Under the pieces are notes generated by a model, which saw nothing but the letters and a program-made list of their open reading frames with translations, searched no databases and was not told where the DNA came from. Below are positions 12,120 to 49,301 of a stretch of 64,000 bases of DNA, in pieces. Position 1 is the stretch's first letter. The number at the start of each line of letters is the position of its first letter. The position numbers and the translations under genes were made by a program. Source of the stretch: Endomychus coccineus (lineage: Eukaryota; Arthropoda; Insecta; Coleoptera; Endomychidae); contig OY294072.1 in the NCBI GenBank assembly GCA_958510875.1, positions 1 to 64,000 of the forward strand, given 5' to 3'.

Positions 12120-12320
12120 TTTTTTTTTTTTTTTTTTTTTTTTTTGTTTTTTTTTTTTTTTTTTTTTGATGGGGAGGAATGCTCATGCACACCAGCTACT
12201 CGTTCTTCCTTTCGCTGGTAGTGTGGGACTCCAGCTATCCTGGCCTACCCACTAAACCTCCCTCTTACCGGGATGCTCCGGTATCACCTTCCGGTATTCT
12301 TCGCAGCAACCCTCCTGTGT

Positions 12321-15300
12321 CTAGTCGATCTCGATTACTCGCTGTCTATTACTTTGATCTTCGTTTTTAGTGCGTAGAACTATCTCACAGAATTTCTCCA
12401 TAGCTTCCCATTTGTCTGAATTTTCTAACATCAGTTTAACGATGTTGTCTGCTCTCAAGTTTTCTCCCATGGCCGTTCGCAGTTCCTCTCTTTCATTTCT
12501 CCATTTATGGCATATCAGCAAGGTGTGTTGTGCGTCGTCCTGTTGTTCTGTGCAGTATAGACACATTACTGTGTCGCTTTTCTTGATTCTATTCAGATAT
12601 GTCTGGAAGCATCCATGACCACTGAGCATTTGAGTCAACCAGTATGTACACGATCCATGTTTCCTCTGCGTCCACGTGCCTATGTCATTTATTAGCGACC
12701 TTGTCCATGCACCTTTTATCGCGCGGCTCCATCTGTCCTGCCATTTTTCCATCGTGTGCCTCCTTGCTTCCTTTTTTGCTGTGCTCATGGTCTGTCCTTG
12801 TATTTTGGCGTCGTATAGTACTTTTCTTTCCGTGATCATGAGGTCTGCTGGTATAATAGAAGCCAGTACTTCGATTGCATCCGTGGATACCGTGCGGTAT
12901 GCTCTCACGATCCTCAGAGCTAAAGTCCTCTGTGAGCTGCGCATTCTGGTGACGTTTCTCTCAACAGTTACGGAGTCTGCCCACGCTGGTGCCCCATATA
13001 GCAGCTTGGCTTGTGATACACAGGCCAGGAGTCGTCGGCTACCTTCGCCAGGGCCGCTCATATTCGGCATGATTCTTGCTAATGCTAGCTCGGTTCTCCT
13101 AGCTTTGTCAGTAGCGTATAGCACTTGCTGGCTGTGGCGAGGATTTGCCTCTAGTACAATCCCCAAGTAATTCAGATGTCTTCCGATTTCGATCTCTTGT
13201 CCTATGATTGTGATAGTCTCATGGCGGCTTCGTCCGCTCCTTTTAGTGGAGAGCCAAGCTATTTCTGTTTTTTGTATCGCAAGCTGGAGACCCGCTTCCT
13301 CTAGCCACTTGGAGATCATTCGTGCTGCGCTCTCAGCGCATTCCCTCAGTTCATCCATGCTTCTCCGTTTCACGACCACCCCGAGGTCGTCGGCAAAACC
13401 GATAACCTTCGCTCCCTCCGGTAGTCGCAGTCTAAGGACCCCGTCATATGCGATATTTCATAAGAGAGGTCCTAGTACAGAGCCCTGTGGGACCCCTCCT
13501 GTTATCTCCATTTCTACTTTGGTACCTGCGCAATCGTATGTGAGGTGTCTATGTTCTAGGTAGCTGCTTATCAATCTTCTGAGATACACTGGAATTTTCC
13601 TCCTCTTTAGTTCCTTCAGAACCGTATCCCAAGGTAGGGAGTTAAACGCGTTACGAACATCTAATGTTATTATAACGCAGTGTTCTCGTTTCCTGAGTGG
13701 CCCTGTATTAGCCTCCTTCGCAATATTTTGTACCGCTATAATGGCATCTATCGTTGACTTCTTTTTCCTGAACCCGTACTGTGATGAAGATAACCCTCCT
13801 GAGTTCTCGATTTCCTTTTCAAGTCTTCCGGCCAAGATTCTCTCGAATAACTTGCCTGCTCCATCTAATAGGCAAATCGGTCTGAAGGAGCCGGGGTCCA
13901 TTTCTGGTTTCCCTGGTTTGGGGATGAGCGCCAGTTTGGCAACCTTCCATCGCTTCGGAAATAGGCCTTCTTGGAGGCACCTGTTCAGCAAGTCAGTGAA
14001 TTGTTCCGGGTAGTTCTCAGTTATGATCTTAATGATTTCATTTGGAAGACCGTCCGGCCCTGGAGCTTTTTTGTTCGGTAACGCGTTTCCGGCTTCCTGT
14101 ATATCTCTGTTATTCAGTGGGGTAAACTCTCCATTCGTGCCAGTTTCCCTCAGTTCAGGTGGTTTTTGTTTTGGAAACAACTCTTCGACAACCGCGGATA
14201 TTCCTCCTGGTACTCGAGCTACTGGGTTGGGGGTTTTTACACCGATTTTTTTCATCACCAGTTTGTATGGTAGACCCCAAGGATCGACATCTATTTCGTC
14301 GCATAACTTCCGCCAGGACCGCTCTTTACTCCTAGTTATCTCTAGTTTTAACTGTTTTTTCGTCAATCTATATTGGTTTTCTAGAATGGCAACTTCATCA
14401 TCCTCACCTACTATTCTTCTGTACCTAATCAATCTTCTTCTGGCATTGTTATTCTCGGACCTAGCAGACGCAACTTCCGCACACCACCAGTATGCTTGGC
14501 GTCTCTCATTCGGTTCATAGGTTGGTATGGATGCCCTGCAAGCTTTTAGAACACTAGTCATGACTGCGTCGGCCATAAGATCTGCATCCTCCTCATTTCG
14601 GCAGGAGTTTCTACTCGTCTTCATTACCTCGATCAACTTGGTAACGTTAGCTTTTTTCGTTTGCCAGCGCATGTATTTCTGTACGATTGGTGTAGCTTCA
14701 TTCACAGTTTCGATCATGTATTTGACGTAGGCGTGGTCGCTCATGCTGTCTTCTCCCAGTACGCTCCATGTTTCAAATTTTCTTGAGAGGCTCTCGGTTG
14801 CAAACGTAACATCCACTATGGATGTGCTCGCTCCTCGACGGAAAGTGGGTTCTTCTCCCCGATTGCATAAGTACATGTTTAGGCTCGTTGTTAGTTCCAA
14901 CAGTGCCTGGCCTCTCCTGTCTGTGTTCAGAGAACCCCATTGTACGGATGATGCATTGAAGTCCCCCCCCACAATGCTGCTGCCACCGTGCGCTCTAATG
15001 CTACTTTCTAGAACCTCTAACCGTTTCTCGAATTCTTCGAACGGTATGTTCGGCGAGATGTAGCAACTGAAAAATTTGATTCCTGCTATTTTGGCCCAGA
15101 CGATGCCTCTTGTGGGGCTATCCCATTTCTCCACCAAGCTCTTCAGTGGTCCGCGCACTTGTATCGCCACGTCGGCCGCCACGTCCTTCATCCATGCTGT
15201 TATTTTCGCAGCATTAGGTTCGCTTATTAGTAACACGTCCGCGGAATGAGCTCTGGCCGTGGCTTCAAGGATATCATGTGCGGCTCGACATCTGTTCAGG

Positions 15301-15326
15301 TTCACTTGCAGGATATTAATTTTCAT
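12321..15326 (-). pseudogene. Family A ORF2 (endonuclease-reverse transcriptase), copy 1, interrupted by TGA
   Basis: Encodes the replication enzyme of the element: an APE-type endonuclease that nicks telomeric DNA and a reverse transcriptase that copies the RNA at the nick. I take the ATG at 15326-15324 as start because it overlaps the ORF1 TGA (ATGA) and is followed at once by the endonuclease motif QVNLNRC. Endonuclease residues seen are E36, GDFN 121-124 and SDH 196-198. RT motifs are APGPD 421-425, catalytic D556 and GVPQGS 611-616. FADD lies at 644-647, beyond an in-frame TGA at 13460-13458 (codon 623). Family B has Trp at that place (TGG), so a TGG to TGA change is likely. The frame stays open to 12321, with a C-terminal CCHC (C922, C925, H934, C939). 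Full length would be 1001 residues. Confidence 0.93.
13458..13460 (-). other. In-frame TGA in RT between GVPQGS and FADD
   Basis: The sense codon is TGA directly after GPLL, where the family B protein has Trp607. The reading frame continues open on both sides, so this is a point nonsense change and not a frameshift. It removes the second half of the RT active site. The same codon is present in copies 2, 3 and 4. Confidence 0.95.
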
Positions 15327-17710
15327 TTTCTGTTTGTATTCGCCCTCGTTGTCGGCCCAGATCGACACTGTCCGCTCCCCGGGTAGTGGTCTGTAGGTCC
15401 CGATCCTTCGCATAATATACATTTCGGTGGGTTTGTGCATTCTTTCTGCCTGTGTCCTGTTCCACCGCATATTCGGCATAAGTCTCTGCGGTTTGGACCA
15501 TTGCATTCTTCCGCCTTGTGTCCGAATCCGTGACAGTTGAAGCATCTTTCTGCTCTTGGCTGCCTCTCCTGTATTTTACATTTCGTCAAGCCAATTTTAA
15601 CTTTGCCTTTTTGTAGCAACACTTTGCTAGCTTCCATAGATACCGCCACTAAAGCTATTCTCAGGTCTGGGCTGTACTCTCGTATCCATCTTACTTCGGA
15701 TGTTTTCAGGTTTTCCGTCGTCATCGTTTGGCTGTCTGATTTTCGCTGTGCTTGGTCCTCCGAGTTTGGGTGGCCTAGGACTGCTTCTATGGCCAGAATA
15801 ATCTCCTCCGGGGTCGTGTCCTCCTCCAGATTTCTGACTTCGATTACTGCTTCGTCTGTCTGTGTACGTCTGACGTAGTTTTCGCCGACAACTTTGCTTA
15901 TGGCGGCTGTGAGCTGCTTCGTGCCTTTTGCTCCTTTCTCCATTTCTACCAGTAGGTTCCCGTTTTTGGTTTTCCGCACTGTGTTAATCTCCTGGAGACC
16001 ATCTTCACTAGCAACCTTAGTTTTTATTGCCCTGAGCGTGTCGGCGTATGACCTGCCTTCTGCCATTTGAACTATAATTTTTTGTGGCCTTCGTCTGACT
16101 CTGGTATCTGGTTTGCGTCCGTTTTTATCCTCTTTAGCTCCTTTCTTGTGAGAAACTGTTATCCAATCGTCCGCCGGATTGTTGTCTTCGTCCTTGTTTT
16201 CCATTTCACCGTGTTCCCTCTGGTTTCCTGTGTACGTGACAATGTCGACGTCCGTATCGGAGAAGGTGTATTCCACCATCTTTTTGCAAGTCGCCCAGGT
16301 TGGCTCTTGACCAATCAGACCTATTCTTGGTATGGCGAGTTTCTTGCACCCGTGTTCAATGAGATGTACTTTCAGCTGTTTTATGCACTCGTATGTGTTC
16401 TCGGCTGTTTGTTTGGCAGTAGAGTCGCCCTTGCAAACGAGATAGTAAATATACCTGGTGCTCTTCTGCATGTTGCCGTTTTTGGTTGGTACCGCTGTTA
16501 TATTCATTAGGTAAGCCACTCCTCCGAGATCAACCTGTTGTGCTAGTAATTCTGTAGCTCCTTGATATCTCTCTTTGAACAGAGCTGATATGCCGCTGCT
16601 CATTTCAAAGTCAGGGGCAACGCAATTGGCCAAAGCGTAATCCATCGGGGCTTTCATGAGGTCTCCCTGTACTTCGGTTACTCTTTCGTAGATTCCGGTT
16701 GGCCACTCCTTTGCTGCCATCTCGCAAAATTTTTGGTATGAGGATCCAGGCTCCATTTCCTGTCTCGAGGCTTCCTTCAATTTTGTCTCGGGTATCTTCG
16801 GTTTCCTTTTTTGATTTTCCAGCTCTCTTAACCTGGTCTCTAACGTGATGGTTTTCTCTGCGTATTCTTTCAGCTTGCTATTCATTTGCGTGGACGCTAT
16901 ACTATACTCCTCCAATTGTTGTTGTTGCCTTCCAATCAGATTTTCGTACTTAGCCTCTGCTTCCCTCCAGTTCGACTCGGTAAGAATTCTCGCTCTTTCG
17001 TCCCGGGTTTGTTTGGTCATTATTGCTCCCTTCTCCCATGCCCGCGTAGTCTTGCGAAGCAAGTCATGAAGCTCGTCCATTCCTTTCTTGAGCTCCACCT
17101 TTGTGTTCGTGTTTGCCTTGGTTATGTCCCGCAGTTGTTCCACTTTCTTCGAAACGCGAGCTAGATGGACTTCCACATTTGCTGTGTCTCCGTGTGAGTC
17201 GGTTCCCTCTGATTCTCTGGTTTCCTTGGCTGCCAGTTTCGTAGGAGGGGCCTTGATAAAGGACTCGTCCGTCGTTGCCCTTTTCCTTTTGGACGTTTCG
17301 GCGTCATGCTTGGAAGGTGCAGGGAAAGGCGCGTACCTGGGCTTTTCGGACGGTTTCGCCTCGACTTCCTTCAAGTGCCTGGGTAGTGAAGGGAGAGATC
17401 CTGTTCTCTCCCTGAATGGACGTTGAATCAGAGAATTGAAGAAGCCTTCTAGGCGTTCCTCCGATTCCCTAGTGGTCGTTAGTTCTTTTCCTATTACGTA
17501 GGGTTCTACGTTCGTTTGCATATCCGTGCCCGTTAAGTCAACCGTGCAGTCTACGCCACCGTCTCGGATTGGTCTCGATTTATCGCTCTCCTCGACTATT
17601 TGCTCTTTGTAGCTTTTTGGAGGTGTTCTGCTCAGCGAGGACCTCCTCACTGACGGGTCTTGCACATCTTCCCAGCTATATTGTTCTTTATCATTGTTTA
17701 GAAATTCCAT
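15323..17710 (-). CDS. Family A ORF1 (gag-like protein with macrodomain and zinc knuckles), copy 1
   Basis: An intact 795-residue ORF1 protein, expected to bind the element RNA and carry it to telomeres. Visible parts in order: a charged N-terminal region (1-180); a probable coiled coil (about 180-305); a stretch at about 338-497 that matches the TARG1/OARD1 macrodomain pattern; a gag-like region (about 540-715); and three zinc knuckles (C723-C736, C745-C758, C764-C782). Macrodomain signs are QGD at 348-350, ALANC at 359-363, YIYYLVCK at 420-427 and PRIG at 461-464. The Lys used by TARG1 has a match at K427, but its catalytic Asp position holds Q468. I chose the ATG at 17710 because family B has a start in the same conserved context. 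The stop overlaps the ORF2 start. Known for the family: knuckles bind nucleic acid. Inferred: ADP-ribose binding. Confidence 0.92.
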   Translation of the reverse strand: MEFLNNDKEQYSWEDVQDPSVRRSSLSRTPPKSYKEQIVEESDKSRPIRDGGVDCTVDLTGTDMQTNVEPYVIGKELTTTRESEERLEGFFNSLIQRPFRERTGSLPSLPRHLKEVEAKPSEKPRYAPFPAPSKHDAETSKRKRATTDESFIKAPPTKLAAKETRESEGTDSHGDTANVEVHLARVSKKVEQLRDITKANTNTKVELKKGMDELHDLLRKTTRAWEKGAIMTKQTRDERARILTESNWREAEAKYENLIGRQQQQLEEYSIASTQMNSKLKEYAEKTITLETRLRELENQKRKPKIPETKLKEASRQEMEPGSSYQKFCEMAAKEWPTGIYERVTEVQGDLMKAPMDYALANCVAPDFEMSSGISALFKERYQGATELLAQQVDLGGVAYLMNITAVPTKNGNMQKSTRYIYYLVCKGDSTAKQTAENTYECIKQLKVHLIEHGCKKLAIPRIGLIGQEPTWATCKKMVEYTFSDTDVDIVTYTGNQREHGEMENKDEDNNPADDWITVSHKKGAKEDKNGRKPDTRVRRRPQKIIVQMAEGRSYADTLRAIKTKVASEDGLQEINTVRKTKNGNLLVEMEKGAKGTKQLTAAISKVVGENYVRRTQTDEAVIEVRNLEEDTTPEEIILAIEAVLGHPNSEDQAQRKSDSQTMTTENLKTSEVRWIREYSPDLRIALVAVSMEASKVLLQKGKVKIGLTKCKIQERQPRAERCFNCHGFGHKAEECNGPNRRDLCRICGGTGHRQKECTNPPKCILCEGSGPTDHYPGSGQCRSGPTTRANTNRK

Positions 17711-17963
17711 GATTGTCCCACGATCAGGGCCGAAGTAAAAATCACCCCCTGGCAGTGCGCCCGTACCAGGGAGAAGGCTATGTACTGCGGAGGACGCCCG
17801 GTTTCCGCAGGTTTTAGCGACTTCGCTGTCGGTTTTTTATAGAGATTCTCTTCTCGCGAGCCGGCCAGTTAAGGCAAGCCCCCCACTTCCAGATGCCACA
17901 GAACACTCCTCTCAGACTCGCCTCTCTGCGGTTCGCGCTGTGGTCCAGATTTACGGTATTAGC

Positions 17964-17986
17964 GGGCGGTAGGCGAGCGACCGCCC
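17964..17986 (-). other. Covarying hairpin in 5' UTR, copy 1
   Basis: Sense GGGCGGU pairs with ACCGCCC around a 9-nt loop. Family B has GGGUGGU/ACCACCC at 61940-61962: both sides changed and pairing is kept, which supports a functional RNA stem. Copy 5 has a one-sided change here (37608) that breaks the pair. Confidence 0.75.
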
Positions 17987-18039
17987 TCGGCTAAGGCCCT
18001 TGGGATGCCAACCCCAAAGTGCTTCTGCAGCACTTTGCC

Positions 18040-18206
18040 CTAGGTTGAGTCGTTCCTTGGTTTCCACTGCTCGCCTTCGACCTGTCCGGCTTGGGAAGCC
18101 CTACCAGGAGTCACTTGCGAGACTCCAGCCGGCATAGCTCTCAGGTTCATTGCAGTTACTTAAGCCCCTCCACCAGCGACAAGGTGTCACGACTCCTAGG
18201 AGGGGG
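18040..18206 (-). ncRNA. Candidate HDV-like ribozyme fold at element 5' end, copy 1
   Basis: Sense-strand helices: P1 pairs the first nucleotides (CCCCUCC, 18206-18200) with GGAGGGG (18171-18165). P2 pairs CUAGGAGUCGU (18199-18189) with ACGACU (18053-18048) and, past a CAA bulge, CCUAG (18044-18040). P3 is CACC/GGUG (18186-18183 with 18174-18171) closing an 8-nt loop UUGUCGCU. The P4 position is filled by a branched stem at 18132-18086. This order and nesting is that of HDV-like ribozymes, which are known at the 5' ends of R2 and other non-LTR elements. Family B keeps P1 by wobble pairs and P2 by a G:C to A:U change. P1 and P3 compete for one base. I could not assign the catalytic C or P1.1 with confidence, so cleavage is a hypothesis. 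Confidence 0.55.
18107..18126 (-). other. GNRA-capped hairpin inside the 5' leader, copy 1
   Basis: Sense GGAGUCUC-GCAA-GUGACUCC forms an 8-bp stem with one U-U mismatch and a GCAA tetraloop. Family B has GGAGUCUC-GAAA-GAGACUCC, a perfect stem with another GNRA loop (62082-62101). An outer stem CCGGCU/AGCCGG (18132-18127 with 18091-18086) encloses it together with a small GGG/CCC hairpin. Confidence 0.7.
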
Positions 18207-18268
18207 CCTAACCTAACCTAACCTAACCTAACCTAACCTAACCTAACCTAACCTAACCTAACCTAACC
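18207..18268. repeat. 62-bp CCTAA tract between copies 1 and 2
   Basis: Twelve CCTAA units plus CC. The tracts between copies 2/3 and 3/4 have exactly this length. That is hard to explain by independent insertions and points to duplication of a whole element-plus-spacer unit. Confidence 0.97.
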
Positions 18269-18469
18269 TTTTTTTTTTTTTTTTTTTTTTTTTTGTTTTT
18301 TTTTTTTTTTTTTTTTGATGGGGAGGAATGCTCATGCACACCAGCTACTCGTTCTTCCTTTCGCTGGTAGTGTGGGACTCCAGCTATCCTGGCCTACCCA
18401 CTAAACCTCCCTCTTACCGGGATGCTCCGGTATCACCTTCCGGTATTCTTCGCAGCAACCCTCCTGTGT

Positions 18470-21400
18470 CTAGTCGATCTCGATTACTCGCTGTCTATTA
18501 CTTTGATCTTCGTTTTTAGTGCGTAGAACTATCTCACAGAATTTCTCCATAGCTTCCCATTTGTCTGAATTTTCTAACATCAGTTTAACGATGTTGTCTG
18601 CTCTCAAGTTTTCTCCCATGGCCGTTCGCAGTTCCTCTCTTTCATTTCTCCATTTATGGCATATCAGCAAGGTGTGTTGTGCGTCGTCCTGTTGTTCTGT
18701 GCAGTATAGACACATTACTGTGTCGCTTTTCTTGATTCTATTCAGATATGTCTGGAAGCATCCATGACCACTGAGCATTTGAGTCAACCAGTATGTACAC
18801 GATCCATGTTTCCTCTGCGTCCACGTGCCTATGTCATTTATTAGCGACCTTGTCCATGCACCTTTTATCGCGCGGCTCCATCTGTCCTGCCATTTTTCCA
18901 TCGTGTGCCTCCTTGCTTCCTTTTTTGCTGTGCTCATGGTCTGTCCTTGTATTTTGGCGTCGTATAGTACTTTTCTTTCCGTGATCATGAGGTCTGCTGG
19001 TATAATAGAAGCCAGTACTTCGATTGCATCCGTGGATACCGTGCGGTATGCTCTCACGATCCTCAGAGCTAAAGTCCTCTGTGAGCTGCGCATTCTGGTG
19101 ACGTTTCTCTCAACAGTTACGGAGTCTGCCCACGCTGGTGCCCCATATAGCAGCTTGGCTTGTGATACACAGGCCAGGAGTCGTCGGCTACCTTCGCCAG
19201 GGCCGCTCATATTCGGCATGATTCTTGCTAATGCTAGCTCGGTTCTCCTAGCTTTGTCAGTAGCGTATAGCACTTGCTGGCTGTGGCGAGGATTTGCCTC
19301 TAGTACAATCCCCAAGTAATTCAGATGTCTTCCGATTTCGATCTCTTGTCCTATGATTGTGATAGTCTCATGGCGGCTTCGTCCGCTCCTTTTAGTGGAG
19401 AGCCAAGCTATTTCTGTTTTTTGTATCGCAAGCTGGAGACCCGCTTCCTCTAGCCACTTGGAGATCATTCGTGCTGCGCTCTCAGCGCATTCCCTCAGTT
19501 CATCCATGCTTCTCCGTTTCACGACCACCCCGAGGTCGTCGGCAAAACCGATAACCTTCGCTCCCTCCGGTAGTCGCAGTCTAAGGACCCCGTCATATGC
19601 GATATTTCATAAGAGAGGTCCTAGTACAGAGCCCTGTGGGACCCCTCCTGTTATCTCCATTTCTACTTTGGTACCTGCGCAATCGTATGTGAGGTGTCTA
19701 TGTTCTAGGTAGCTGCTTATCAATCTTCTGAGATACACTGGAATTTTCCTCCTCTTTAGTTCCTTCAGAACCGTATCCCAAGGTAGGGAGTTAAACGCGT
19801 TACGAACATCTAATGTTATTATAACGCAGTGTTCTCGTTTCCTGAGTGGCCCTGTATTAGCCTCCTTCGCAATATTTTGTACCGCTATAATGGCATCTAT
19901 CGTTGACTTCTTTTTCCTGAACCCGTACTGTGATGAAGATAACCCTCCTGAGTTCTCGATTTCCTTTTCAAGTCTTCCGGCCAAGATTCTCTCGAATAAC
20001 TTGCCTGCTCCATCTAATAGGCAAATCGGTCTGAAGGAGCCGGGGTCCATTTCTGGTTTCCCTGGTTTGGGGATGAGCGCCAGTTTGGCAACCTTCCATC
20101 GCTTCGGAAATAGGCCTTCTTGGAGGCACCTGTTCAGCAAGTCAGTGAATTGTTCCGGGTAGTTCTCAGTTATGATCTTAATGATTTCATTTGGAAGACC
20201 GTCCGGCCCTGGAGCTTTTTTGTTCGGTAACGCGTTTCCGGCTTCCTGTATATCTCTGTTATTCAGTGGGGTAAACTCTCCATTCGTGCCAGTTTCCCTC
20301 AGTTCAGGTGGTTTTTGTTTTGGAAACAACTCTTCGACAACCGCGGATATTCCTCCTGGTACTCGAGCTACTGGGTTGGGGGTTTTTACACCGATTTTTT
20401 TCATCACCAGTTTGTATGGTAGACCCCAAGGATCGACATCTATTTCGTCGCATAACTTCCGCCAGGACCGCTCTTTACTCCTAGTTATCTCTAGTTTTAA
20501 CTGTTTTTTCGTCAATCTATATTGGTTTTCTAGAATGGCAACTTCATCATCCTCACCTACTATTCTTCTGTACCTAATCAATCTTCTTCTGGCATTGTTA
20601 TTCTCGGACCTAGCAGACGCAACTTCCGCACACCACCAGTATGCTTGGCGTCTCTCATTCGGTTCATAGGTTGGTATGGATGCCCTGCAAGCTTTTAGAA
20701 CACTAGTCATGACTGCGTCGGCCATAAGATCTGCATCCTCCTCATTTCGGCAGGAGTTTCTACTCGTCTTCATTACCTCGATCAACTTGGTAACGTTAGC
20801 TTTTTTCGTTTGCCAGCGCATGTATTTCTGTACGATTGGTGTAGCTTCATTCACAGTTTCGATCATGTATTTGACGTAGGCGTGGTCGCTCATGCTGTCT
20901 TCTCCCAGTACGCTCCATGTTTCAAATTTTCTTGAGAGGCTCTCGGTTGCAAACGTAACATCCACTATGGATGTGCTCGCTCCTCGACGGAAAGTGGGTT
21001 CTTCTCCCCGATTGCATAAGTACATGTTTAGGCTCGTTGTTAGTTCCAACAGTGCCTGGCCTCTCCTGTCTGTGTTCAGAGAACCCCATTGTACGGATGA
21101 TGCATTGAAGTCCCCCCCCACAATGCTGCTGCCACCGTGCGCTCTAATGCTACTTTCTAGAACCTCTAACCGTTTCTCGAATTCTTCGAACGGTATGTTC
21201 GGCGAGATCTAGCAACTGAAAAATTTGATTCCTGCTATTTTGGCCCAGACGATGCCTCTTGTGGGGCTATCCCATTTCTCCACCAAGCTCTTCAGTGGTC
21301 CGCGCACTTGTATCGCCACGTCGGCCGCCACGTCCTTCATCCATGCTGTTATTTTCGCAGCATTAGGTTCGCTTATTAGTAACACGTCCGCGGAATGAGC

Positions 21401-21475
21401 TCTGGCCGTGGCTTCAAGGATATCATGTGCGGCTCGACATCTGTTCAGGTTCACTTGCAGGATATTAATTTTCAT
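18470..21475 (-). pseudogene. Family A ORF2, copy 2, two nonsense codons
   Basis: Endonuclease-RT gene with the shared TGA before FADD (19609-19607) and a second stop of its own. At 21211-21209 the sense codon is TAG where copies 1, 3 and 4 have TAC (Tyr89, in the CYISPN segment of the endonuclease). The base change is G to C on the + strand at 21209. The product would end after 88 residues, before the GDFN catalytic motif, so neither endonuclease nor RT can be made. The frame is otherwise open from 21475 to 18470. Confidence 0.93.
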
Positions 21476-23859
21476 TTTCTGTTTGTATTCGCCCTCGTTG
21501 TCGGCCCAGATCGACACTGTCCGCTCCCCGGGTAGTGGTCTGTAGGTCCCGATCCTTCGCATAATATACATTTCGGTGGGTTTGTGCATTCTTTCTGCCT
21601 GTGTCCTGTTCCACCGCATATTCGGCATAAGTCTCTGCGGTTTGGACCATTGCATTCTTCCGCCTTGTGTCCGAATCCGTGACAGTTGAAGCATCTTTCT
21701 GCTCTTGGCTGCCTCTCCTGTATTTTACATTTCGTCAAGCCAATTTTAACTTTGCCTTTTTGTAGCAACACTTTGCTAGCTTCCATAGATACCGCCACTA
21801 AAGCTATTCTCAGGTCTGGGCTGTACTCTCGTATCCATCTTACTTCGGATGTTTTCAGGTTTTCCGTCGTCATCGTTTGGCTGTCTGATTTTCGCTGTGC
21901 TTGGTCCTCCGAGTTTGGGTGGCCTAGGACTGCTTCTATGGCCAGAATAATCTCCTCCGGGGTCGTGTCCTCCTCCAGATTTCTGACTTCGATTACTGCT
22001 TCGTCTGTCTGTGTACGTCTGACGTAGTTTTCGCCGACAACTTTGCTTATGGCGGCTGTGAGCTGCTTCGTGCCTTTTGCTCCTTTCTCCATTTCTACCA
22101 GTAGGTTCCCGTTTTTGGTTTTCCGCACTGTGTTAATCTCCTGGAGACCATCTTCACTAGCAACCTTAGTTTTTATTGCCCTGAGCGTGTCGGCGTATGA
22201 CCTGCCTTCTGCCATTTGAACTATAATTTTTTGTGGCCTTCGTCTGACTCTGGTATCTGGTTTGCGTCCGTTTTTATCCTCTTTAGCTCCTTTCTTGTGA
22301 GAAACTGTTATCCAATCGTCCGCCGGATTGTTGTCTTCGTCCTTGTTTTCCATTTCACCGTGTTCCCTCTGGTTTCCTGTGTACGTGACAATGTCGACGT
22401 CCGTATCGGAGAAGGTGTATTCCACCATCTTTTTGCAAGTCGCCCAGGTTGGCTCTTGACCAATCAGACCTATTCTTGGTATGGCGAGTTTCTTGCACCC
22501 GTGTTCAATGAGATGTACTTTCAGCTGTTTTATGCACTCGTATGTGTTCTCGGCTGTTTGTTTGGCAGTAGAGTCGCCCTTGCAAACGAGATAGTAAATA
22601 TACCTGGTGCTCTTCTGCATGTTGCCGTTTTTGGTTGGTACCGCTGTTATATTCATTAGGTAAGCCACTCCTCCGAGATCAACCTGTTGTGCTAGTAATT
22701 CTGTAGCTCCTTGATATCTCTCTTTGAACAGAGCTGATATGCCGCTGCTCATTTCAAAGTCAGGGGCAACGCAATTGGCCAAAGCGTAATCCATCGGGGC
22801 TTTCATGAGGTCTCCCTGTACTTCGGTTACTCTTTCGTAGATTCCGGTTGGCCACTCCTTTGCTGCCATCTCGCAAAATTTTTGGTATGAGGATCCAGGC
22901 TCCATTTCCTGTCTCGAGGCTTCCTTCAATTTTGTCTCGGGTATCTTCGGTTTCCTTTTTTGATTTTCCAGCTCTCTTAACCTGGTCTCTAACGTGATGG
23001 TTTTCTCTGCGTATTCTTTCAGCTTGCTATTCATTTGCGTGGACGCTATACTATACTCCTCCAATTGTTGTTGTTGCCTTCCAATCAGATTTTCGTACTT
23101 AGCCTCTGCTTCCCTCCAGTTCGACTCGGTAAGAATTCTCGCTCTTTCGTCCCGGGTTTGTTTGGTCATTATTGCTCCCTTCTCCCATGCCCGCGTAGTC
23201 TTGCGAAGCAAGTCATGAAGCTCGTCCATTCCTTTCTTGAGCTCCACCTTTGTGTTCGTGTTTGCCTTGGTTATGTCCCGCAGTTGTTCCACTTTCTTCG
23301 AAACGCGAGCTAGATGGACTTCCACATTTGCTGTGTCTCCGTGTGAGTCGGTTCCCTCTGATTCTCTGGTTTCCTTGGCTGCCAGTTTCGTAGGAGGGGC
23401 CTTGATAAAGGACTCGTCCGTCGTTGCCCTTTTCCTTTTGGACGTTTCGGCGTCATGCTTGGAAGGTGCAGGGAAAGGCGCGTACCTGGGCTTTTCGGAC
23501 GGTTTCGCCTCGACTTCCTTCAAGTGCCTGGGTAGTGAAGGGAGAGATCCTGTTCTCTCCCTGAATGGACGTTGAATCAGAGAATTGAAGAAGCCTTCTA
23601 GGCGTTCCTCCGATTCCCTAGTGGTCGTTAGTTCTTTTCCTATTACGTAGGGTTCTACGTTCGTTTGCATATCCGTGCCCGTTAAGTCAACCGTGCAGTC
23701 TACGCCACCGTCTCGGATTGGTCTCGATTTATCGCTCTCCTCGACTATTTGCTCTTTGTAGCTTTTTGGAGGTGTTCTGCTCAGCGAGGACCTCCTCACT
23801 GACGGGTCTTGCACATCTTCCCAGCTATATTGTTCTTTATCATTGTTTAGAAATTCCAT
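21472..23859 (-). CDS. Family A ORF1, copy 2
   Basis: Intact 795-residue gag-like protein, identical in translation to copy 1: coiled coil, macrodomain-like part (338-497), gag-like region and three zinc knuckles. Its TGA stop overlaps the ORF2 ATG (ATGA). This copy could still supply ORF1 protein even though its ORF2 is dead. Confidence 0.92.
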   Translation of the reverse strand: MEFLNNDKEQYSWEDVQDPSVRRSSLSRTPPKSYKEQIVEESDKSRPIRDGGVDCTVDLTGTDMQTNVEPYVIGKELTTTRESEERLEGFFNSLIQRPFRERTGSLPSLPRHLKEVEAKPSEKPRYAPFPAPSKHDAETSKRKRATTDESFIKAPPTKLAAKETRESEGTDSHGDTANVEVHLARVSKKVEQLRDITKANTNTKVELKKGMDELHDLLRKTTRAWEKGAIMTKQTRDERARILTESNWREAEAKYENLIGRQQQQLEEYSIASTQMNSKLKEYAEKTITLETRLRELENQKRKPKIPETKLKEASRQEMEPGSSYQKFCEMAAKEWPTGIYERVTEVQGDLMKAPMDYALANCVAPDFEMSSGISALFKERYQGATELLAQQVDLGGVAYLMNITAVPTKNGNMQKSTRYIYYLVCKGDSTAKQTAENTYECIKQLKVHLIEHGCKKLAIPRIGLIGQEPTWATCKKMVEYTFSDTDVDIVTYTGNQREHGEMENKDEDNNPADDWITVSHKKGAKEDKNGRKPDTRVRRRPQKIIVQMAEGRSYADTLRAIKTKVASEDGLQEINTVRKTKNGNLLVEMEKGAKGTKQLTAAISKVVGENYVRRTQTDEAVIEVRNLEEDTTPEEIILAIEAVLGHPNSEDQAQRKSDSQTMTTENLKTSEVRWIREYSPDLRIALVAVSMEASKVLLQKGKVKIGLTKCKIQERQPRAERCFNCHGFGHKAEECNGPNRRDLCRICGGTGHRQKECTNPPKCILCEGSGPTDHYPGSGQCRSGPTTRANTNRK

Positions 23860-24188
23860 GATTGTCCCACGATCAGGGCCGAAGTAAAAATCACCCCCTG
23901 GCAGTGCGCCCGTACCAGGGAGAAGGCTATGTACTGCGGAGGACGCCCGGTTTCCGCAGGTTTTAGCGACTTCGCTGTCGGTTTTTTATAGAGATTCTCT
24001 TCTCGCGAGCCGGCCAGTTAAGGCAAGCCCCCCACTTCCAGATGCCACAGAACACTCCTCTCAGACTCGCCTCTCTGCGGTTCGCGCTGTGGTCCAGATT
24101 TACGGTATTAGCGGGCGGTAGGCGAGCGACCGCCCTCGGCTAAGGCCCTTGGGATGCCAACCCCAAAGTGCTTCTGCAGCACTTTGCC

Positions 24189-24355
24189 CTAGGTTGAGTC
24201 GTTCCTTGGTTTCCACTGCTCGCCTTCGACCTGTCCGGCTTGGGAAGCCCTACCAGGAGTCACTTGCGAGACTCCAGCCGGCATAGCTCTCAGGTTCATT
24301 GCAGTTACTTAAGCCCCTCCACCAGCGACAAGGTGTCACGACTCCTAGGAGGGGG
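24189..24355 (-). ncRNA. Candidate HDV-like ribozyme fold, copy 2
   Basis: The same sequence as in copy 1 (18040-18206) with P1, P2, P3 and the branched P4-position stem unchanged. It is a duplicate, so it adds no independent evidence. Confidence 0.5.
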
Positions 24356-24417
24356 CCTAACCTAACCTAACCTAACCTAACCTAACCTAACCTAACCTAA
24401 CCTAACCTAACCTAACC
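24356..24417. repeat. 62-bp CCTAA tract between copies 2 and 3
   Basis: Twelve CCTAA units plus CC, identical in length to the tract at 18207-18268. Confidence 0.97.
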
Positions 24418-24618
24418 TTTTTTTTTTTTTTTTTTTTTTTTTTGTTTTTTTTTTTTTTTTTTTTTGATGGGGAGGAATGCTCATGCACACCAGCTACTCG
24501 TTCTTCCTTTCGCTGGTAGTGTGGGACTCCAGCTATCCTGGCCTACCCACTAAACCTCCCTCTTACCGGGATGCTCCGGTATCACCTTCCGGTATTCTTC
24601 GCAGCAACCCTCCTGTGT

Positions 24619-27600
24619 CTAGTCGATCTCGATTACTCGCTGTCTATTACTTTGATCTTCGTTTTTAGTGCGTAGAACTATCTCACAGAATTTCTCCATA
24701 GCTTCCCATTTGTCTGAATTTTCTAACATCAGTTTAACGATGTTGTCTGCTCTCAAGTTTTCTCCCATGGCCGTTCGCAGTTCCTCTCTTTCATTTCTCC
24801 ATTTATGGCATATCAGCAAGGTGTGTTGTGCGTCGTCCTGTTGTTCTGTGCAGTATAGACACATTACTGTGTCGCTTTTCTTGATTCTATTCAGATATGT
24901 CTGGAAGCATCCATGACCACTGAGCATTTGAGTCAACCAGTATGTACACGATCCATGTTTCCTCTGCGTCCACGTGCCTATGTCATTTATTAGCGACCTT
25001 GTCCATGCACCTTTTATCGCGCGGCTCCATCTGTCCTGCCATTTTTCCATCGTGTGCCTCCTTGCTTCCTTTTTTGCTGTGCTCATGGTCTGTCCTTGTA
25101 TTTTGGCGTCGTATAGTACTTTTCTTTCCGTGATCATGAGGTCTGCTGGTATAATAGAAGCCAGTACTTCGATTGCATCCGTGGATACCGTGCGGTATGC
25201 TCTCACGATCCTCAGAGCTAAAGTCCTCTGTGAGCTGCGCATTCTGGTGACGTTTCTCTCAACAGTTACGGAGTCTGCCCACGCTGGTGCCCCATATAGC
25301 AGCTTGGCTTGTGATACACAGGCCAGGAGTCGTCGGCTACCTTCGCCAGGGCCGCTCATATTCGGCATGATTCTTGCTAATGCTAGCTCGGTTCTCCTAG
25401 CTTTGTCAGTAGCGTATAGCACTTGCTGGCTGTGGCGAGGATTTGCCTCTAGTACAATCCCCAAGTAATTCAGATGTCTTCCGATTTCGATCTCTTGTCC
25501 TATGATTGTGATAGTCTCATGGCGGCTTCGTCCGCTCCTTTTAGTGGAGAGCCAAGCTATTTCTGTTTTTTGTATCGCAAGCTGGAGACCCGCTTCCTCT
25601 AGCCACTTGGAGATCATTCGTGCTGCGCTCTCAGCGCATTCCCTCAGTTCATCCATGCTTCTCCGTTTCACGACCACCCCGAGGTCGTCGGCAAAACCGA
25701 TAACCTTCGCTCCCTCCGGTAGTCGCAGTCTAAGGACCCCGTCATATGCGATATTTCATAAGAGAGGTCCTAGTACAGAGCCCTGTGGGACCCCTCCTGT
25801 TATCTCCATTTCTACTTTGGTACCTGCGCAATCGTATGTGAGGTGTCTATGTTCTAGGTAGCTGCTTATCAATCTTCTGAGATACACTGGAATTTTCCTC
25901 CTCTTTAGTTCCTTCAGAACCGTATCCCAAGGTAGGGAGTTAAACGCGTTACGAACATCTAATGTTATTATAACGCAGTGTTCTCGTTTCCTGAGTGGCC
26001 CTGTATTAGCCTCCTTCGCAATATTTTGTACCGCTATAATGGCATCTATCGTTGACTTCTTTTTCCTGAACCCGTACTGTGATGAAGATAACCCTCCTGA
26101 GTTCTCGATTTCCTTTTCAAGTCTTCCGGCCAAGATTCTCTCGAATAACTTGCCTGCTCCATCTAATAGGCAAATCGGTCTGAAGGAGCCGGGGTCCATT
26201 TCTGGTTTCCCTGGTTTGGGGATGAGCGCCAGTTTGGCAACCTTCCATCGCTTCGGAAATAGGCCTTCTTGGAGGCACCTGTTCAGCAAGTCAGTGAATT
26301 GTTCCGGGTAGTTCTCAGTTATGATCTTAATGATTTCATTTGGAAGACCGTCCGGCCCTGGAGCTTTTTTGTTCGGTAACGCGTTTCCGGCTTCCTGTAT
26401 ATCTCTGTTATTCAGTGGGGTAAACTCTCCATTCGTGCCAGTTTCCCTCAGTTCAGGTGGTTTTTGTTTTGGAAACAACTCTTCGACAACCGCGGATATT
26501 CCTCCTGGTACTCGAGCTACTGGGTTGGGGGTTTTTACACCGATTTTTTTCATCACCAGTTTGTATGGTAGACCCCAAGGATCGACATCTATTTCGTCGC
26601 ATAACTTCCGCCAGGACCGCTCTTTACTCCTAGTTATCTCTAGTTTTAACTGTTTTTTCGTCAATCTATATTGGTTTTCTAGAATGGCAACTTCATCATC
26701 CTCACCTACTATTCTTCTGTACCTAATCAATCTTCTTCTGGCATTGTTATTCTCGGACCTAGCAGACGCAACTTCCGCACACCACCAGTATGCTTGGCGT
26801 CTCTCATTCGGTTCATAGGTTGGTATGGATGCCCTGCAAGCTTTTAGAACACTAGTCATGACTGCGTCGGCCATAAGATCTGCATCCTCCTCATTTCGGC
26901 AGGAGTTTCTACTCGTCTTCATTACCTCGATCAACTTGGTAACGTTAGCTTTTTTCGTTTGCCAGCGCATGTATTTCTGTACGATTGGTGTAGCTTCATT
27001 CACAGTTTCGATCATGTATTTGACGTAGGCGTGGTCGCTCATGCTGTCTTCTCCCAGTACGCTCCATGTTTCAAATTTTCTTGAGAGGCTCTCGGTTGCA
27101 AACGTAACATCCACTATGGATGTGCTCGCTCCTCGACGGAAAGTGGGTTCTTCTCCCCGATTGCATAAGTACATGTTTAGGCTCGTTGTTAGTTCCAACA
27201 GTGCCTGGCCTCTCCTGTCTGTGTTCAGAGAACCCCATTGTACGGATGATGCATTGAAGTCCCCCCCCACAATGCTGCTGCCACCGTGCGCTCTAATGCT
27301 ACTTTCTAGAACCTCTAACCGTTTCTCGAATTCTTCGAACGGTATGTTCGGCGAGATGTAGCAACTGAAAAATTTGATTCCTGCTATTTTGGCCCAGACG
27401 ATGCCTCTTGTGGGGCTATCCCATTTCTCCACCAAGCTCTTCAGTGGTCCGCGCACTTGTATCGCCACGTCGGCCGCCACGTCCTTCATCCATGCTGTTA
27501 TTTTCGCAGCATTAGGTTCGCTTATTAGTAACACGTCCGCGGAATGAGCTCTGGCCGTGGCTTCAAGGATATCATGTGCGGCTCGACATCTGTTCAGGTT

Positions 27601-27624
27601 CACTTGCAGGATATTAATTTTCAT
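24619..27624 (-). pseudogene. Family A ORF2, copy 3, interrupted by TGA
   Basis: Endonuclease-RT gene translated the same as copy 1. The only break is the shared TGA at 25758-25756 between GVPQGS and FADD. The endonuclease part is complete (E36, GDFN, SDH). A truncated protein of 622 residues could therefore nick DNA but lacks the second half of the RT palm. Confidence 0.93.
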
Positions 27625-30008
27625 TTTCTGTTTGTATTCGCCCTCGTTGTCGGCCCAGATCGACACTGTCCGCTCCCCGGGTAGTGGTCTGTAGGTCCCG
27701 ATCCTTCGCATAATATACATTTCGGTGGGTTTGTGCATTCTTTCTGCCTGTGTCCTGTTCCACCGCATATTCGGCATAAGTCTCTGCGGTTTGGACCATT
27801 GCATTCTTCCGCCTTGTGTCCGAATCCGTGACAGTTGAAGCATCTTTCTGCTCTTGGCTGCCTCTCCTGTATTTTACATTTCGTCAAGCCAATTTTAACT
27901 TTGCCTTTTTGTAGCAACACTTTGCTAGCTTCCATAGATACCGCCACTAAAGCTATTCTCAGGTCTGGGCTGTACTCTCGTATCCATCTTACTTCGGATG
28001 TTTTCAGGTTTTCCGTCGTCATCGTTTGGCTGTCTGATTTTCGCTGTGCTTGGTCCTCCGAGTTTGGGTGGCCTAGGACTGCTTCTATGGCCAGAATAAT
28101 CTCCTCCGGGGTCGTGTCCTCCTCCAGATTTCTGACTTCGATTACTGCTTCGTCTGTCTGTGTACGTCTGACGTAGTTTTCGCCGACAACTTTGCTTATG
28201 GCGGCTGTGAGCTGCTTCGTGCCTTTTGCTCCTTTCTCCATTTCTACCAGTAGGTTCCCGTTTTTGGTTTTCCGCACTGTGTTAATCTCCTGGAGACCAT
28301 CTTCACTAGCAACCTTAGTTTTTATTGCCCTGAGCGTGTCGGCGTATGACCTGCCTTCTGCCATTTGAACTATAATTTTTTGTGGCCTTCGTCTGACTCT
28401 GGTATCTGGTTTGCGTCCGTTTTTATCCTCTTTAGCTCCTTTCTTGTGAGAAACTGTTATCCAATCGTCCGCCGGATTGTTGTCTTCGTCCTTGTTTTCC
28501 ATTTCACCGTGTTCCCTCTGGTTTCCTGTGTACGTGACAATGTCGACGTCCGTATCGGAGAAGGTGTATTCCACCATCTTTTTGCAAGTCGCCCAGGTTG
28601 GCTCTTGACCAATCAGACCTATTCTTGGTATGGCGAGTTTCTTGCACCCGTGTTCAATGAGATGTACTTTCAGCTGTTTTATGCACTCGTATGTGTTCTC
28701 GGCTGTTTGTTTGGCAGTAGAGTCGCCCTTGCAAACGAGATAGTAAATATACCTGGTGCTCTTCTGCATGTTGCCGTTTTTGGTTGGTACCGCTGTTATA
28801 TTCATTAGGTAAGCCACTCCTCCGAGATCAACCTGTTGTGCTAGTAATTCTGTAGCTCCTTGATATCTCTCTTTGAACAGAGCTGATATGCCGCTGCTCA
28901 TTTCAAAGTCAGGGGCAACGCAATTGGCCAAAGCGTAATCCATCGGGGCTTTCATGAGGTCTCCCTGTACTTCGGTTACTCTTTCGTAGATTCCGGTTGG
29001 CCACTCCTTTGCTGCCATCTCGCAAAATTTTTGGTATGAGGATCCAGGCTCCATTTCCTGTCTCGAGGCTTCCTTCAATTTTGTCTCGGGTATCTTCGGT
29101 TTCCTTTTTTGATTTTCCAGCTCTCTTAACCTGGTCTCTAACGTGATGGTTTTCTCTGCGTATTCTTTCAGCTTGCTATTCATTTGCGTGGACGCTATAC
29201 TATACTCCTCCAATTGTTGTTGTTGCCTTCCAATCAGATTTTCGTACTTAGCCTCTGCTTCCCTCCAGTTCGACTCGGTAAGAATTCTCGCTCTTTCGTC
29301 CCGGGTTTGTTTGGTCATTATTGCTCCCTTCTCCCATGCCCGCGTAGTCTTGCGAAGCAAGTCATGAAGCTCGTCCATTCCTTTCTTGAGCTCCACCTTT
29401 GTGTTCGTGTTTGCCTTGGTTATGTCCCGCAGTTGTTCCACTTTCTTCGAAACGCGAGCTAGATGGACTTCCACATTTGCTGTGTCTCCGTGTGAGTCGG
29501 TTCCCTCTGATTCTCTGGTTTCCTTGGCTGCCAGTTTCGTAGGAGGGGCCTTGATAAAGGACTCGTCCGTCGTTGCCCTTTTCCTTTTGGACGTTTCGGC
29601 GTCATGCTTGGAAGGTGCAGGGAAAGGCGCGTACCTGGGCTTTTCGGACGGTTTCGCCTCGACTTCCTTCAAGTGCCTGGGTAGTGAAGGGAGAGATCCT
29701 GTTCTCTCCCTGAATGGACGTTGAATCAGAGAATTGAAGAAGCCTTCTAGGCGTTCCTCCGATTCCCTAGTGGTCGTTAGTTCTTTTCCTATTACGTAGG
29801 GTTCTACGTTCGTTTGCATATCCGTGCCCGTTAAGTCAACCGTGCAGTCTACGCCACCGTCTCGGATTGGTCTCGATTTATCGCTCTCCTCGACTATTTG
29901 CTCTTTGTAGCTTTTTGGAGGTGTTCTGCTCAGCGAGGACCTCCTCACTGACGGGTCTTGCACATCTTCCCAGCTATATTGTTCTTTATCATTGTTTAGA
30001 AATTCCAT
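27621..30008 (-). CDS. Family A ORF1, copy 3
   Basis: Intact 795-residue gag-like protein, the same translation as copy 1, including the TARG1-like macrodomain segment and three zinc knuckles. The stop overlaps the ORF2 start as in copy 1. Confidence 0.92.
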   Translation of the reverse strand: MEFLNNDKEQYSWEDVQDPSVRRSSLSRTPPKSYKEQIVEESDKSRPIRDGGVDCTVDLTGTDMQTNVEPYVIGKELTTTRESEERLEGFFNSLIQRPFRERTGSLPSLPRHLKEVEAKPSEKPRYAPFPAPSKHDAETSKRKRATTDESFIKAPPTKLAAKETRESEGTDSHGDTANVEVHLARVSKKVEQLRDITKANTNTKVELKKGMDELHDLLRKTTRAWEKGAIMTKQTRDERARILTESNWREAEAKYENLIGRQQQQLEEYSIASTQMNSKLKEYAEKTITLETRLRELENQKRKPKIPETKLKEASRQEMEPGSSYQKFCEMAAKEWPTGIYERVTEVQGDLMKAPMDYALANCVAPDFEMSSGISALFKERYQGATELLAQQVDLGGVAYLMNITAVPTKNGNMQKSTRYIYYLVCKGDSTAKQTAENTYECIKQLKVHLIEHGCKKLAIPRIGLIGQEPTWATCKKMVEYTFSDTDVDIVTYTGNQREHGEMENKDEDNNPADDWITVSHKKGAKEDKNGRKPDTRVRRRPQKIIVQMAEGRSYADTLRAIKTKVASEDGLQEINTVRKTKNGNLLVEMEKGAKGTKQLTAAISKVVGENYVRRTQTDEAVIEVRNLEEDTTPEEIILAIEAVLGHPNSEDQAQRKSDSQTMTTENLKTSEVRWIREYSPDLRIALVAVSMEASKVLLQKGKVKIGLTKCKIQERQPRAERCFNCHGFGHKAEECNGPNRRDLCRICGGTGHRQKECTNPPKCILCEGSGPTDHYPGSGQCRSGPTTRANTNRK

Positions 30009-30337
30009 GATTGTCCCACGATCAGGGCCGAAGTAAAAATCACCCCCTGGCAGTGCGCCCGTACCAGGGAGAAGGCTATGTACTGCGGAGGACGCCCGGT
30101 TTCCGCAGGTTTTAGCGACTTCGCTGTCGGTTTTTTATAGAGATTCTCTTCTCGCGAGCCGGCCAGTTAAGGCAAGCCCCCCACTTCCAGATGCCACAGA
30201 ACACTCCTCTCAGACTCGCCTCTCTGCGGTTCGCGCTGTGGTCCAGATTTACGGTATTAGCGGGCGGTAGGCGAGCGACCGCCCTCGGCTAAGGCCCTTG
30301 GGATGCCAACCCCAAAGTGCTTCTGCAGCACTTTGCC

Positions 30338-30504
30338 CTAGGTTGAGTCGTTCCTTGGTTTCCACTGCTCGCCTTCGACCTGTCCGGCTTGGGAAGCCCT
30401 ACCAGGAGTCACTTGCGAGACTCCAGCCGGCATAGCTCTCAGGTTCATTGCAGTTACTTAAGCCCCTCCACCAGCGACAAGGTGTCACGACTCCTAGGAG
30501 GGGG
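30338..30504 (-). ncRNA. Candidate HDV-like ribozyme fold, copy 3
   Basis: Duplicate of the copy 1 structure, with all helices unchanged. Confidence 0.5.
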
Positions 30505-30566
30505 CCTAACCTAACCTAACCTAACCTAACCTAACCTAACCTAACCTAACCTAACCTAACCTAACC
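30505..30566. repeat. 62-bp CCTAA tract between copies 3 and 4
   Basis: Twelve CCTAA units plus CC, again exactly 62 bp. Confidence 0.97.
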
Positions 30567-33700: not shown

Positions 33701-33809
33701 GTTCGCTTATTAGTAACACGTCCGCGGAATGAGCTCTGGCCGTGGCTTCAAGGATATCATGTGCGGCTCGACATCTGTTCAGGTTCACTTGCAGGATATT
33801 AATTTTCAT
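30768..33809 (-). pseudogene. Family A ORF2, copy 4, TGA plus 12-residue duplication
   Basis: Endonuclease-RT gene carrying the shared TGA (31907-31905) and an in-frame tandem repeat of 12 residues (AFNSLPWDTVLK), encoded by the 36-bp duplication at 32061-32132. The duplication follows catalytic Asp556 of the RT motif LDVRNAF almost directly, so it would probably disturb the palm even without the stop. The endonuclease half is unchanged from copy 1. The start again overlaps the ORF1 stop. Confidence 0.92.
32061..32132. repeat. 36-bp tandem duplication in copy 4 ORF2
   Basis: Two adjacent identical 36-bp blocks (32061-32096 and 32097-32132), present once in copies 1-3. It keeps the reading frame and adds 12 residues. 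Confidence 0.97.
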
Positions 33810-46790: not shown

Positions 46791-46829
46791 TAACCTAACC
46801 TAACCAAACCTTACCTAACCTAACCAACA

Positions 46830-47985
46830 GGCCATCAAATACAGCTTTGTGATTAGTCAAATATTTATCAGACATGAGAGGAATGATTTTTTTTCAAGCT
46901 CATTTATGATTCGATCTGGTCATATTTGACGTCATTCTGCAGGTACATGAATCGGCTACATGCATGCCAAGATTGGTTTCTTAAGTCAGATAACTGCACC
47001 ACTTATGCCACTCGTTATCGAACGTTACATATACAGTTCTGTCATTATTTGAGTATATTCTAGACATCAGAGAAAATATGATTTTGCACTCTTACGTATG
47101 ATACGATTCAGCCGTTTTTCATATTTTTACATAGCTAAATATCCCTTCTACACGTGTGCCAAAAATAATTCCTCAAGTCAGTTAAACGCACACCTTATGA
47201 TTTATGAAATGAAGCTTTGACATTATTTGAGTATATTTTAGATATGAGAGGAAATAAATTTTTTTCTCGGCTCTTTATCATTCGATCTGGTCATATTTGA
47301 CGTCATTCTGCAGGTACATGAATCGGCTACATGCATGCCAAGATTGGTTTCTTAAGTCAGATAACTGCACCTCTTATGCCAGGGACCCCTGTATGATGAC
47401 AGACTTGGAAAAAAAATTGCAAAATTCTGAAAAATTCACATTTCATCATTTGATAGTATTCATGATGAAACGGATAACAATCAAAGTTTCAGTTCGCTAA
47501 CTTTCATAGTTTAGGAGAAAAAAAATATTTTTATTTCAAAATTCTCAATTTCAAATTTTTTTTCCTCGATAGCGAATGAAGCAATTTCGCTCGAGACTAT
47601 GACATCCAACTTTCAAAAGCGAACTTTATCGGAAGGTAAATTTTAGGAAACGATTTGGAAAAAATTTTGTCAATCAAACCATGTACCTACCTTTGCTCTT
47701 AGGAGGAAATTAATTTTATCCTTTTTCGCTAGAGTTATCGACATCATTGGGTAGGTACGTGAAAAACTAAGATTTTATTACGACGTAAAATTTTTCTCAA
47801 TCAATCCGTTGCCGATCTAAAGCCAATTGAATTTTAATCCCTATGCTTTCCCATGTAAAACGTGGGAGGCCATATCAGCTGAACGAAGATATCCTCCTGT
47901 CAGTTTTTCGATATAATACGTTCCTGATGATGCTTAGAATTCGAATCAATATTTAGTGGGAAAATTTTGGTCAACTTCTATAGTG
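46830..47985. repeat. Subtelomeric satellite, short unit 2
   Basis: Nearly identical to short unit 1, 1195 bp further on, with the same TAGTGGGA and GTACCTACC alleles. The 39-bp tract at 46791-46829 precedes it. Confidence 0.92.
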
Positions 47986-48024
47986 TAACCTAACCTAACC
48001 AAACCTTACCTAACCTAACCAACA

Positions 48025-49182: not shown

Positions 49183-49301
49183 TAACCTAACCTAACCTAA
49201 CCTAACCTAACCTAACCTAACCTAACCTAACCTAACCTAACCTAACCTAATCTAACCTTACCTAACCTAACCTAACCAAACCTTACCTAACCTAACCAAC
49301 A
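49183..49301. repeat. CCTAA tract with CCTAAT variant
   Basis: About 119 bp of CCTAA including one TAATCTAA variant. The next spacer (50281-50399) has the same length and variant, so unit plus spacer was duplicated together. Confidence 0.95.

Follow-up and report, generated by a model that had tools for sequence, protein, structure and literature searches.

A TARG1-derived macrodomain within the ORF1 protein of a telomere-inserted LINE of the beetle Endomychus coccineus

The first 64,000 nucleotides of contig OY294072.1 of the beetle Endomychus coccineus (assembly GCA_958510875.1, 906 Mb), hereafter the window, are the start of the contig and open with 12 kb of (TAACC)n. These repeats are followed by four tandem units, each with open reading frames ORF1 and ORF2, and a truncated fifth unit of a long interspersed nuclear element (LINE) that we call family A. 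ORF1 of family A holds a full-length macrodomain derived from the enzyme TARG1 (also OARD1 or C6orf130), upstream of two units resembling the RNA recognition motif (RRM) and of CCHC zinc knuckles. What might such a domain do in a retrotransposon? The reading that we tentatively prefer is that it belongs to a plan shared by the ORF1s of R1-type elements, is best kept in telomeric family A and is predicted to bind ADP-ribose or ADP-ribosylated nucleic acid.

In the first copy the domain occupies residues 343–494 (16229–16684; this and the other parts of families A and B given here lie on the minus strand) of an intact ORF1 of 795 amino acids (15323–17710). It is present at 22378–22833, 28527–28982 and 34676–35131 in the ORF1s of the second (21472–23859), third (27621–30008) and fourth (33806–36157) copies, while the fifth ends before it. 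From eight motifs, a preliminary description of the window had inferred that a telomeric non-LTR (long terminal repeat) element encodes a TARG1/OARD1-type macrodomain in its ORF1, and we located all eight at the residues it gave. When residues 322–502 (16205–16747) were compared with the PDB by phmmer, human C6orf130/TARG1 was found at E 1.3e-23, and the top five of the 11 distinct PDB sequences listed at E≤10 were TARG1. The family A domain is about 38–40% identical to human TARG1, and hhalign aligned it with TARG1-type domains over 154 columns. A profile built from 108 OARD1 proteins, without those of mussel and coral, gives it 114.2 bits; the best of 400 shuffled sequences (200 each of the family A domain and of its counterpart in a second LINE of the window, family B) reached 5.0 bits, which rules out chance similarity. 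Structure prediction gives a macro fold whose nearest relative is TARG1. Lack of a macro fold and lack of a TARG1 or macro profile match, the two outcomes that the preliminary description had named as telling against it, were both looked for and neither was found. The Pfam Macro model remains under its cut-off on family A ORF1 (13.5 of 22 bits, E 0.069), and an NCBIfam scan of the entire ORF1 gave no listed match.

Does the domain retain an ADP-ribose pocket? With TARG1 residues counted on the PDB chain, family A keeps D350 (Asp20), G373, K427 (Lys84; codon 16430–16432), G464 and W472. Changed are N362 (His32), A365 (Ser35, an equivalence of our own drawn from the His-x-x-Asn pattern, where PMC9411070 writes Ser26 for TARG1), I466 (Gly123, by ungapped alignment) and Q468 (Asp125, for which PMC7050489 writes Glu125 and the PDB chain has Asp; codon 16307–16309). 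The preliminary description was also right in matching the catalytic Lys at K427 and in finding the Asp replaced by Q468. Compared with human TARG1, a member of the ALC1-like class, the family A domain is fused inside a LINE ORF1, has Asp125 as Gln, Ser35 as Ala and Gly123 as Ile, and carries a 13-residue insertion (residues 402–414; 16469–16507), where all 120 listed OARD1-like proteins have a gap. Fifty-five alignment columns have a uniformity of 95% or more across those 120 proteins; family A keeps 30 of these and family B ten. An older relative of family A, termed A′, keeps K427, has His at 362 as in OARD1, Ala at 365 and Leu at 468. Because the Asp125 equivalent is Gln in A and Leu in A′, we file the domain as TARG1-derived and not as a TARG1 enzyme. 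In favour of the preferred reading, the ratio of nonsynonymous to synonymous change (dN/dS) between A and A′ is 0.385 in the macrodomain (150 codons), 0.336 in ORF1 before it and 0.384 after it (dS about 0.25).

Since the equivalents of Asp125, Ser35 and the PB-loop Gly are changed, normal TARG1 catalysis is not expected of family A. Peterson reportedly described in 2011 how mutations of Ser35 and Asp125 affect human C6orf130. Among other macrodomains, the dyad is reduced to its Lys in DarG and absent from SCO6735, and both proteins are described as acting on DNA-linked ADP-ribose (PMC7050489, PMC9411070). According to PMC9411070, the Asn that we equate with Ser35 is required in SCO6735 and in DarG, and a change of the PB-loop Gly cripples SCO6735. 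By our mapping, the Asn needed by DarG (PMC9411070) is Ala in family A, and family A scores far under the NCBIfam equivalog cut-off for the DarG antitoxin macrodomain (26.8 of 250 bits). The family A domain is probably an ADP-ribose binder, probably at PARP-marked targets; with the Lys kept and the three other positions changed, we expect it to read the mark or, at the very most, to erase it slowly as DarG does, and not to act as the protein hydrolase that TARG1 normally is.

Is the domain private to family A? With the domain as query, a search of the genome turned up 311 candidates, of which 150 were scored; the genome match counts given here rest on these 150. At least 19 matches show 21–28% identity and start no later than residue ten of the query; 15 of the 19 have no internal stop. 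Seventeen of the 19 were fetched and 13 aligned (frames of 298–748 codons), the other four being stop-split or partial. The Lys and four PB-loop residues are missing in all 13 aligned domains, and these relatives score 8.6–31.9 bits against the OARD1 profile (family A 114). A profile of nine of the 13, built with neither family A nor OARD1, matched five sequences among all PDB chains at E≤10; all five are human TARG1 (best E 2e-11). Compared with an OARD1-centred alignment (10 OARD1, one phage, one bacterial and two LTR-element domains), the R1-type profile aligns over 139 columns at E 2.6e-17. Over the core alone (residues 345–494), the score with A exceeds that with the best LTR or OARD1 sequence for each of the 13. 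Two of the matches, L047 and L049, lead on to an ORF2 in which Pfam recognises an APE-type endonuclease. With moderate confidence, then, these comparisons suggest that the macrodomain is part of a plan shared by the R1-type ORF1s of this genome, and that family A has its best-preserved form. The preliminary description had read the domain as captured and doubted that it is a standard part of such ORF1s; the decayed versions in other R1-type ORF1s speak against this, and the domain seems to be common property of these elements and not something that family A captured for itself.

Family B provides one such version within the window. Its ORF1 (59584–61740) is a single frame of 718 codons but for one in-frame TAA (60652–60654), which falls in the decayed domain (60364–60816); its ORF2 (56633–59581) encodes endonuclease and reverse transcriptase. 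As in the R1-type versions, the Lys and PB-loop residues are lacking. R1 and TRAS ORF1s of other insects are said to show a stretch like that of family B. Identity between A and B is 22.4% in the macrodomain region, the lowest among the ORF1 regions compared.

A third set of matches, the remaining rows of the search (at least 108), shows 30–37% identity, many with long open frames. Pfam, run in pieces on two of these 108 rows (L043 and L044), gave the order reverse transcriptase, RNase H, Macro, integrase H2C2 and integrase core, which is the layout of a Ty3/Gypsy-like pol; such frames occur in many copies. For L044, the macro piece has a match to TARG1 at E 5.5e-39. Among 14 aligned LTR domains, the Lys is present in 13 and the Asp in 13; L069 lacks both.

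How could a macrodomain serve an element that inserts into telomeres? In the mechanism we have in mind, every step beyond the presence of the domain is inferred. The ORF1 protein would coat the element RNA through its RRMs and knuckles. The element endonuclease would nick the telomeric repeat, whereupon PARP1 or PARP2 would mark the DNA ends and nearby proteins. The macrodomain might then tether the RNA–protein particle to the ADP-ribose mark, or shield or slowly clear that mark, and the freed 3′ end would prime reverse transcription. We favour binding at the nicked telomeric target, as tether or shield, because of three published observations: PARP1 is reported to ADP-ribosylate human telomeric DNA, and TARG1, though not its K84A mutant, to remove the mark (PMC11102865, 2024); L1 integration is described as assisted by PARP1 and PARP2, partly through RPA (PMC8535693); and in the chikungunya virus macrodomain ADP-ribose binding can, by the account in PMC12632316, remain after catalysis is lost.

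Several observations weigh against a shared, ADP-ribose-binding domain. Three pocket positions are altered in family A (S35 to A, G123 to I and D125 to Q), and a change at the residue equated with Ser35 is reported to almost abolish SCO6735 activity (PMC9411070). The relatives persist without the Lys and PB loop, 15 of the 19 being free of stops, so that ADP-ribose binding would be dispensable for R1-type ORF1 proteins in general. Nor does the domain look tied to telomeres in general, since TTAGG runs occur in just three of 17 R1-type loci (L050, L056 and L058) and in none of the other 14 within the fetched 3–4.5 kb. The dN/dS values between A and A′ are rough, because A′ is frameshifted and some neutral changes in it push the ratios up. 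The R1 assignment is made from ORF2 N-terminal motifs and Pfam for L047 and L049, and for the others from similarity or a nearby knuckle-bearing frame. An unrooted tree was built from 23 of 35 rows, the 12 removed beforehand being near-copies, partial or divergent; it recovers OARD1 (97/98), LTR (83/84) and R1-type plus B (64/57) groups, weakly parts the last from A, LTR and OARD1, and does not place A inside the R1-type group. A first tree was uninformative, its branch to A measuring 8–9 changes per column. The family B core scores 83 with LTR, 65 with OARD1 and 58 with A. The argument that R1-type matches alone reach the flank before the domain was dropped, as LTR rows also align from query residues 4–8.

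Could the domain now be a structural or RNA- or protein-binding scaffold of the ORF1 protein, the family A pocket being a relic on the way to the state of its relatives? The stop-free yet pocketless R1-type and B domains, the persistence of their profile signal to TARG1, the three changed positions in A itself and a macrodomain no more constrained between A and A′ than the rest of ORF1 would all fit. It is less easily squared with a family A domain far more TARG1-like than its relatives (114 against 8.6–31.9 bits), which retains three times as many of the near-uniform OARD1 columns as family B and a loop length lost in the R1-type versions; we hold this scaffold possible, if somewhat doubtful. 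Alternatively, the domain might be a working DarG-like eraser, its single Lys stripping ADP-ribose from telomeric DNA, which would open the target, or U-ADPr from the element RNA, which would protect the template. The reported action on DNA of DarG with one dyad residue and SCO6735 with none (PMC7050489, PMC9411070) lends this some credit, as do the reported removal of U-ADPr by TARG1-like proteins, that of Drosophila included (PMC13036486), and the role of TARG1 as main hydrolase of human telomeric DNA-ADPr, DarG being only partially active in vitro (PMC11102865). However, the Ser35 equivalent is Ala in both A and A′, where SCO6735 and DarG are said to need an Asn at the presumed same position, and the PB-loop Gly whose change cripples SCO6735 is, in the ungapped alignment, Ile in A. 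An active eraser therefore strikes us as unlikely.

A further alternative concerns origin: an ancestral, decayed domain in family A may have been overwritten by a fresh TARG1-type copy taken from a gene of the host, from an LTR element or from an arthropod virus. Identity of the family A domain is higher with human TARG1 (about 38–40%) than with the corresponding region of B (22.4%), and the unrooted tree leaves it, weakly, on the OARD1/LTR side. TARG1-like domains are also encoded by Ty3/Gypsy-type pol frames of this genome and by arthropod viruses, in predicted proteins such as those of Kadipiro virus and an isopod iridovirus. Captures of viral helicases by R1-clade TRAS elements have been reported (PMC5563155, PMC4686597). 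Against overwriting stand the core-only scores, by which all 13 R1-type domains are nearer to A than to any LTR or OARD1 sequence tested, family B being the exception; we think it rather doubtful.

A limited search of openly licensed articles in PMC found no report of a macrodomain in a LINE ORF1. Searches of a protein database returned none of 156 candidates at E≤10 with ORF1 residues 320–500, and none of 17 at E≤0.001 with the domain alone; both are weak evidence of absence, because candidates need shared five-residue words and similar length. Viral and prokaryotic contigs scanned with family A ORF2 and with the domain yielded no relative, and two further queries found one viral-collection contig (query A1) and three bacterial loci (query A4). 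Among proteins, query A1 gave 1032 at E≤0.01, of which 120 were listed; those named are vertebrate OARD1s, one coral and one mussel protein, and no arthropod OARD1 is among the 120. The viral-collection contig encodes (L001:2998–3417) a standalone TARG1-like protein of 139 amino acids, whose best segment shares 45% identity with human TARG1. In BFVD, predicted arthropod-virus proteins (Kadipiro virus VP8, and those of thrips virga- and flavi-like viruses and an isopod iridovirus) rank among the best structural matches of the domain.

The rest of family A is that of a telomeric LINE. Copy 4 (GGTT/CCCC) and family B (GGTT/CCCT) both start directly after GGTT; the 5′ junction of copies 1–3 is slightly different. 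The poly(A) ends (12120–12167 in copy 1, joined to (TTAGG)n) run into GGTTAGG, and the sense strand is the TTAGG strand. Because of the GGTT 5′ start and the poly(A)–GG 3′ junction, we assign the SART-type target TT^AGG; family A is a LINE of SART type inserted in telomeric repeats. The 5′ untranslated region (UTR) of copy 1, with its telomeric-repeat edge, lies at 17707–18268, and an Rfam search of it at E≤0.1 gave no match. It is 88% identical, up to the ORF1 start, to that of family B (61680–62244), whose ORF1 is only about 23% and ORF2 about 35% identical, which suggests exchange between the families or strong constraint.

Pfam recognises a LINE endonuclease (APE-type) and a reverse transcriptase in ORF2 (12321–15545 in copy 1) and a zinc knuckle in ORF1. 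The knuckles span residues ~723–780 (15371–15544), one by Pfam match (745–760) and the rest by eye. Upstream of them, the two RRM-like units (residues 541–718; 15557–16090) come from a low-confidence model of the C-terminal half (mean pLDDT 59.7; TM-scores low, 0.25–0.33 by query length); we read them as RRMs because of their strand–helix order and because tandem-RRM proteins rank first in Foldseek (E 1.4e-4 to 9.5e-4). ORF2 bears an in-frame TGA (13458–13460 in copy 1) that is common to copies 1–3; copy 2 has an additional stop, and by the ORF list copy 4 is split likewise. Three units are exactly 6149 bp long. They (12120–30566) differ by 0–1 positions and have identical telomeric spacers, and seven further near-identical copies stand on contig C22; together these look like array amplification of one ORF2-stop copy rather than independent insertions. 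Elsewhere in the window, in subtelomeric sequence (46791–55219), short degenerate TAACC runs repeat every ~1.2 kb.

Is family A then dead? All 181 residues of the query are identical in at least 21 genome matches, of which the window holds four, and the next best match is A′, 78–79% identical in two pieces. TTAGG-type runs occur in 20 of the 21 loci, which align with the window element at 99.6–100% in their main nucleotide alignments (0–9 mismatches, at most two gaps). The two C22 regions examined carry the ORF2 defect of the window; in seven of 12 fetched regions ORF2 is open as a single uninterrupted frame of 1084 codons, which rules out the death of the entire family. Near-identical loci and open ORF2 copies thus make family A young, with copies free of the defect.

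How does this element compare with known ones? It resembles SART1, the telomeric R1-clade LINE of Bombyx mori, in its target between the T and A of TTAGG, its sense strand, poly(A), CCHC-bearing ORF1 and ORF2 with endonuclease and reverse transcriptase; SART1 was compared by description only, and the passages of PMC7265360 consulted mention no macrodomain for it. Like Type I LINE ORF1s (types as in PMC4120745), that of family A has RRM-like units upstream of a CCHC knuckle, to which it adds the upstream macrodomain; the LINE ORF1 domains named in the literature consulted are RRM, CCHC, coiled coil, PHD, esterase and SF1 helicase. Fish epsilon-like endogenous retroviruses offer a precedent for a macro domain in a retroelement (PMC4977317, citing Basta 2009); there it is an additional ORF of an LTR retrovirus and not part of a LINE ORF1.

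A broader proposal, doubtful in our estimate, would make the TARG1-derived macrodomain an unrecognised ancestral component of R1-clade LINE ORF1s, a pocketless scaffold in most families, whose predicted pocket a telomere-specific family retained to read or clear PARP-made telomeric ADP-ribose; Ty3/Gypsy elements would have acquired this enzyme independently, within pol. With the present finding, the known components of LINE ORF1s come to include an ADP-ribose-handling fold, and a so far unnamed region of R1-type ORF1s may receive a name. The finding would link telomere-targeted retrotransposition to the PARP/TARG1 chemistry reported for human telomeres (PMC11102865), an idea open to direct testing because a SART1 retrotransposition assay exists (PMC7265360). 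The presence of TARG1-like domains in two retroelement types of one genome suggests that retroelements repeatedly meet host ADP-ribosylation, either as an obstacle or as an aid.

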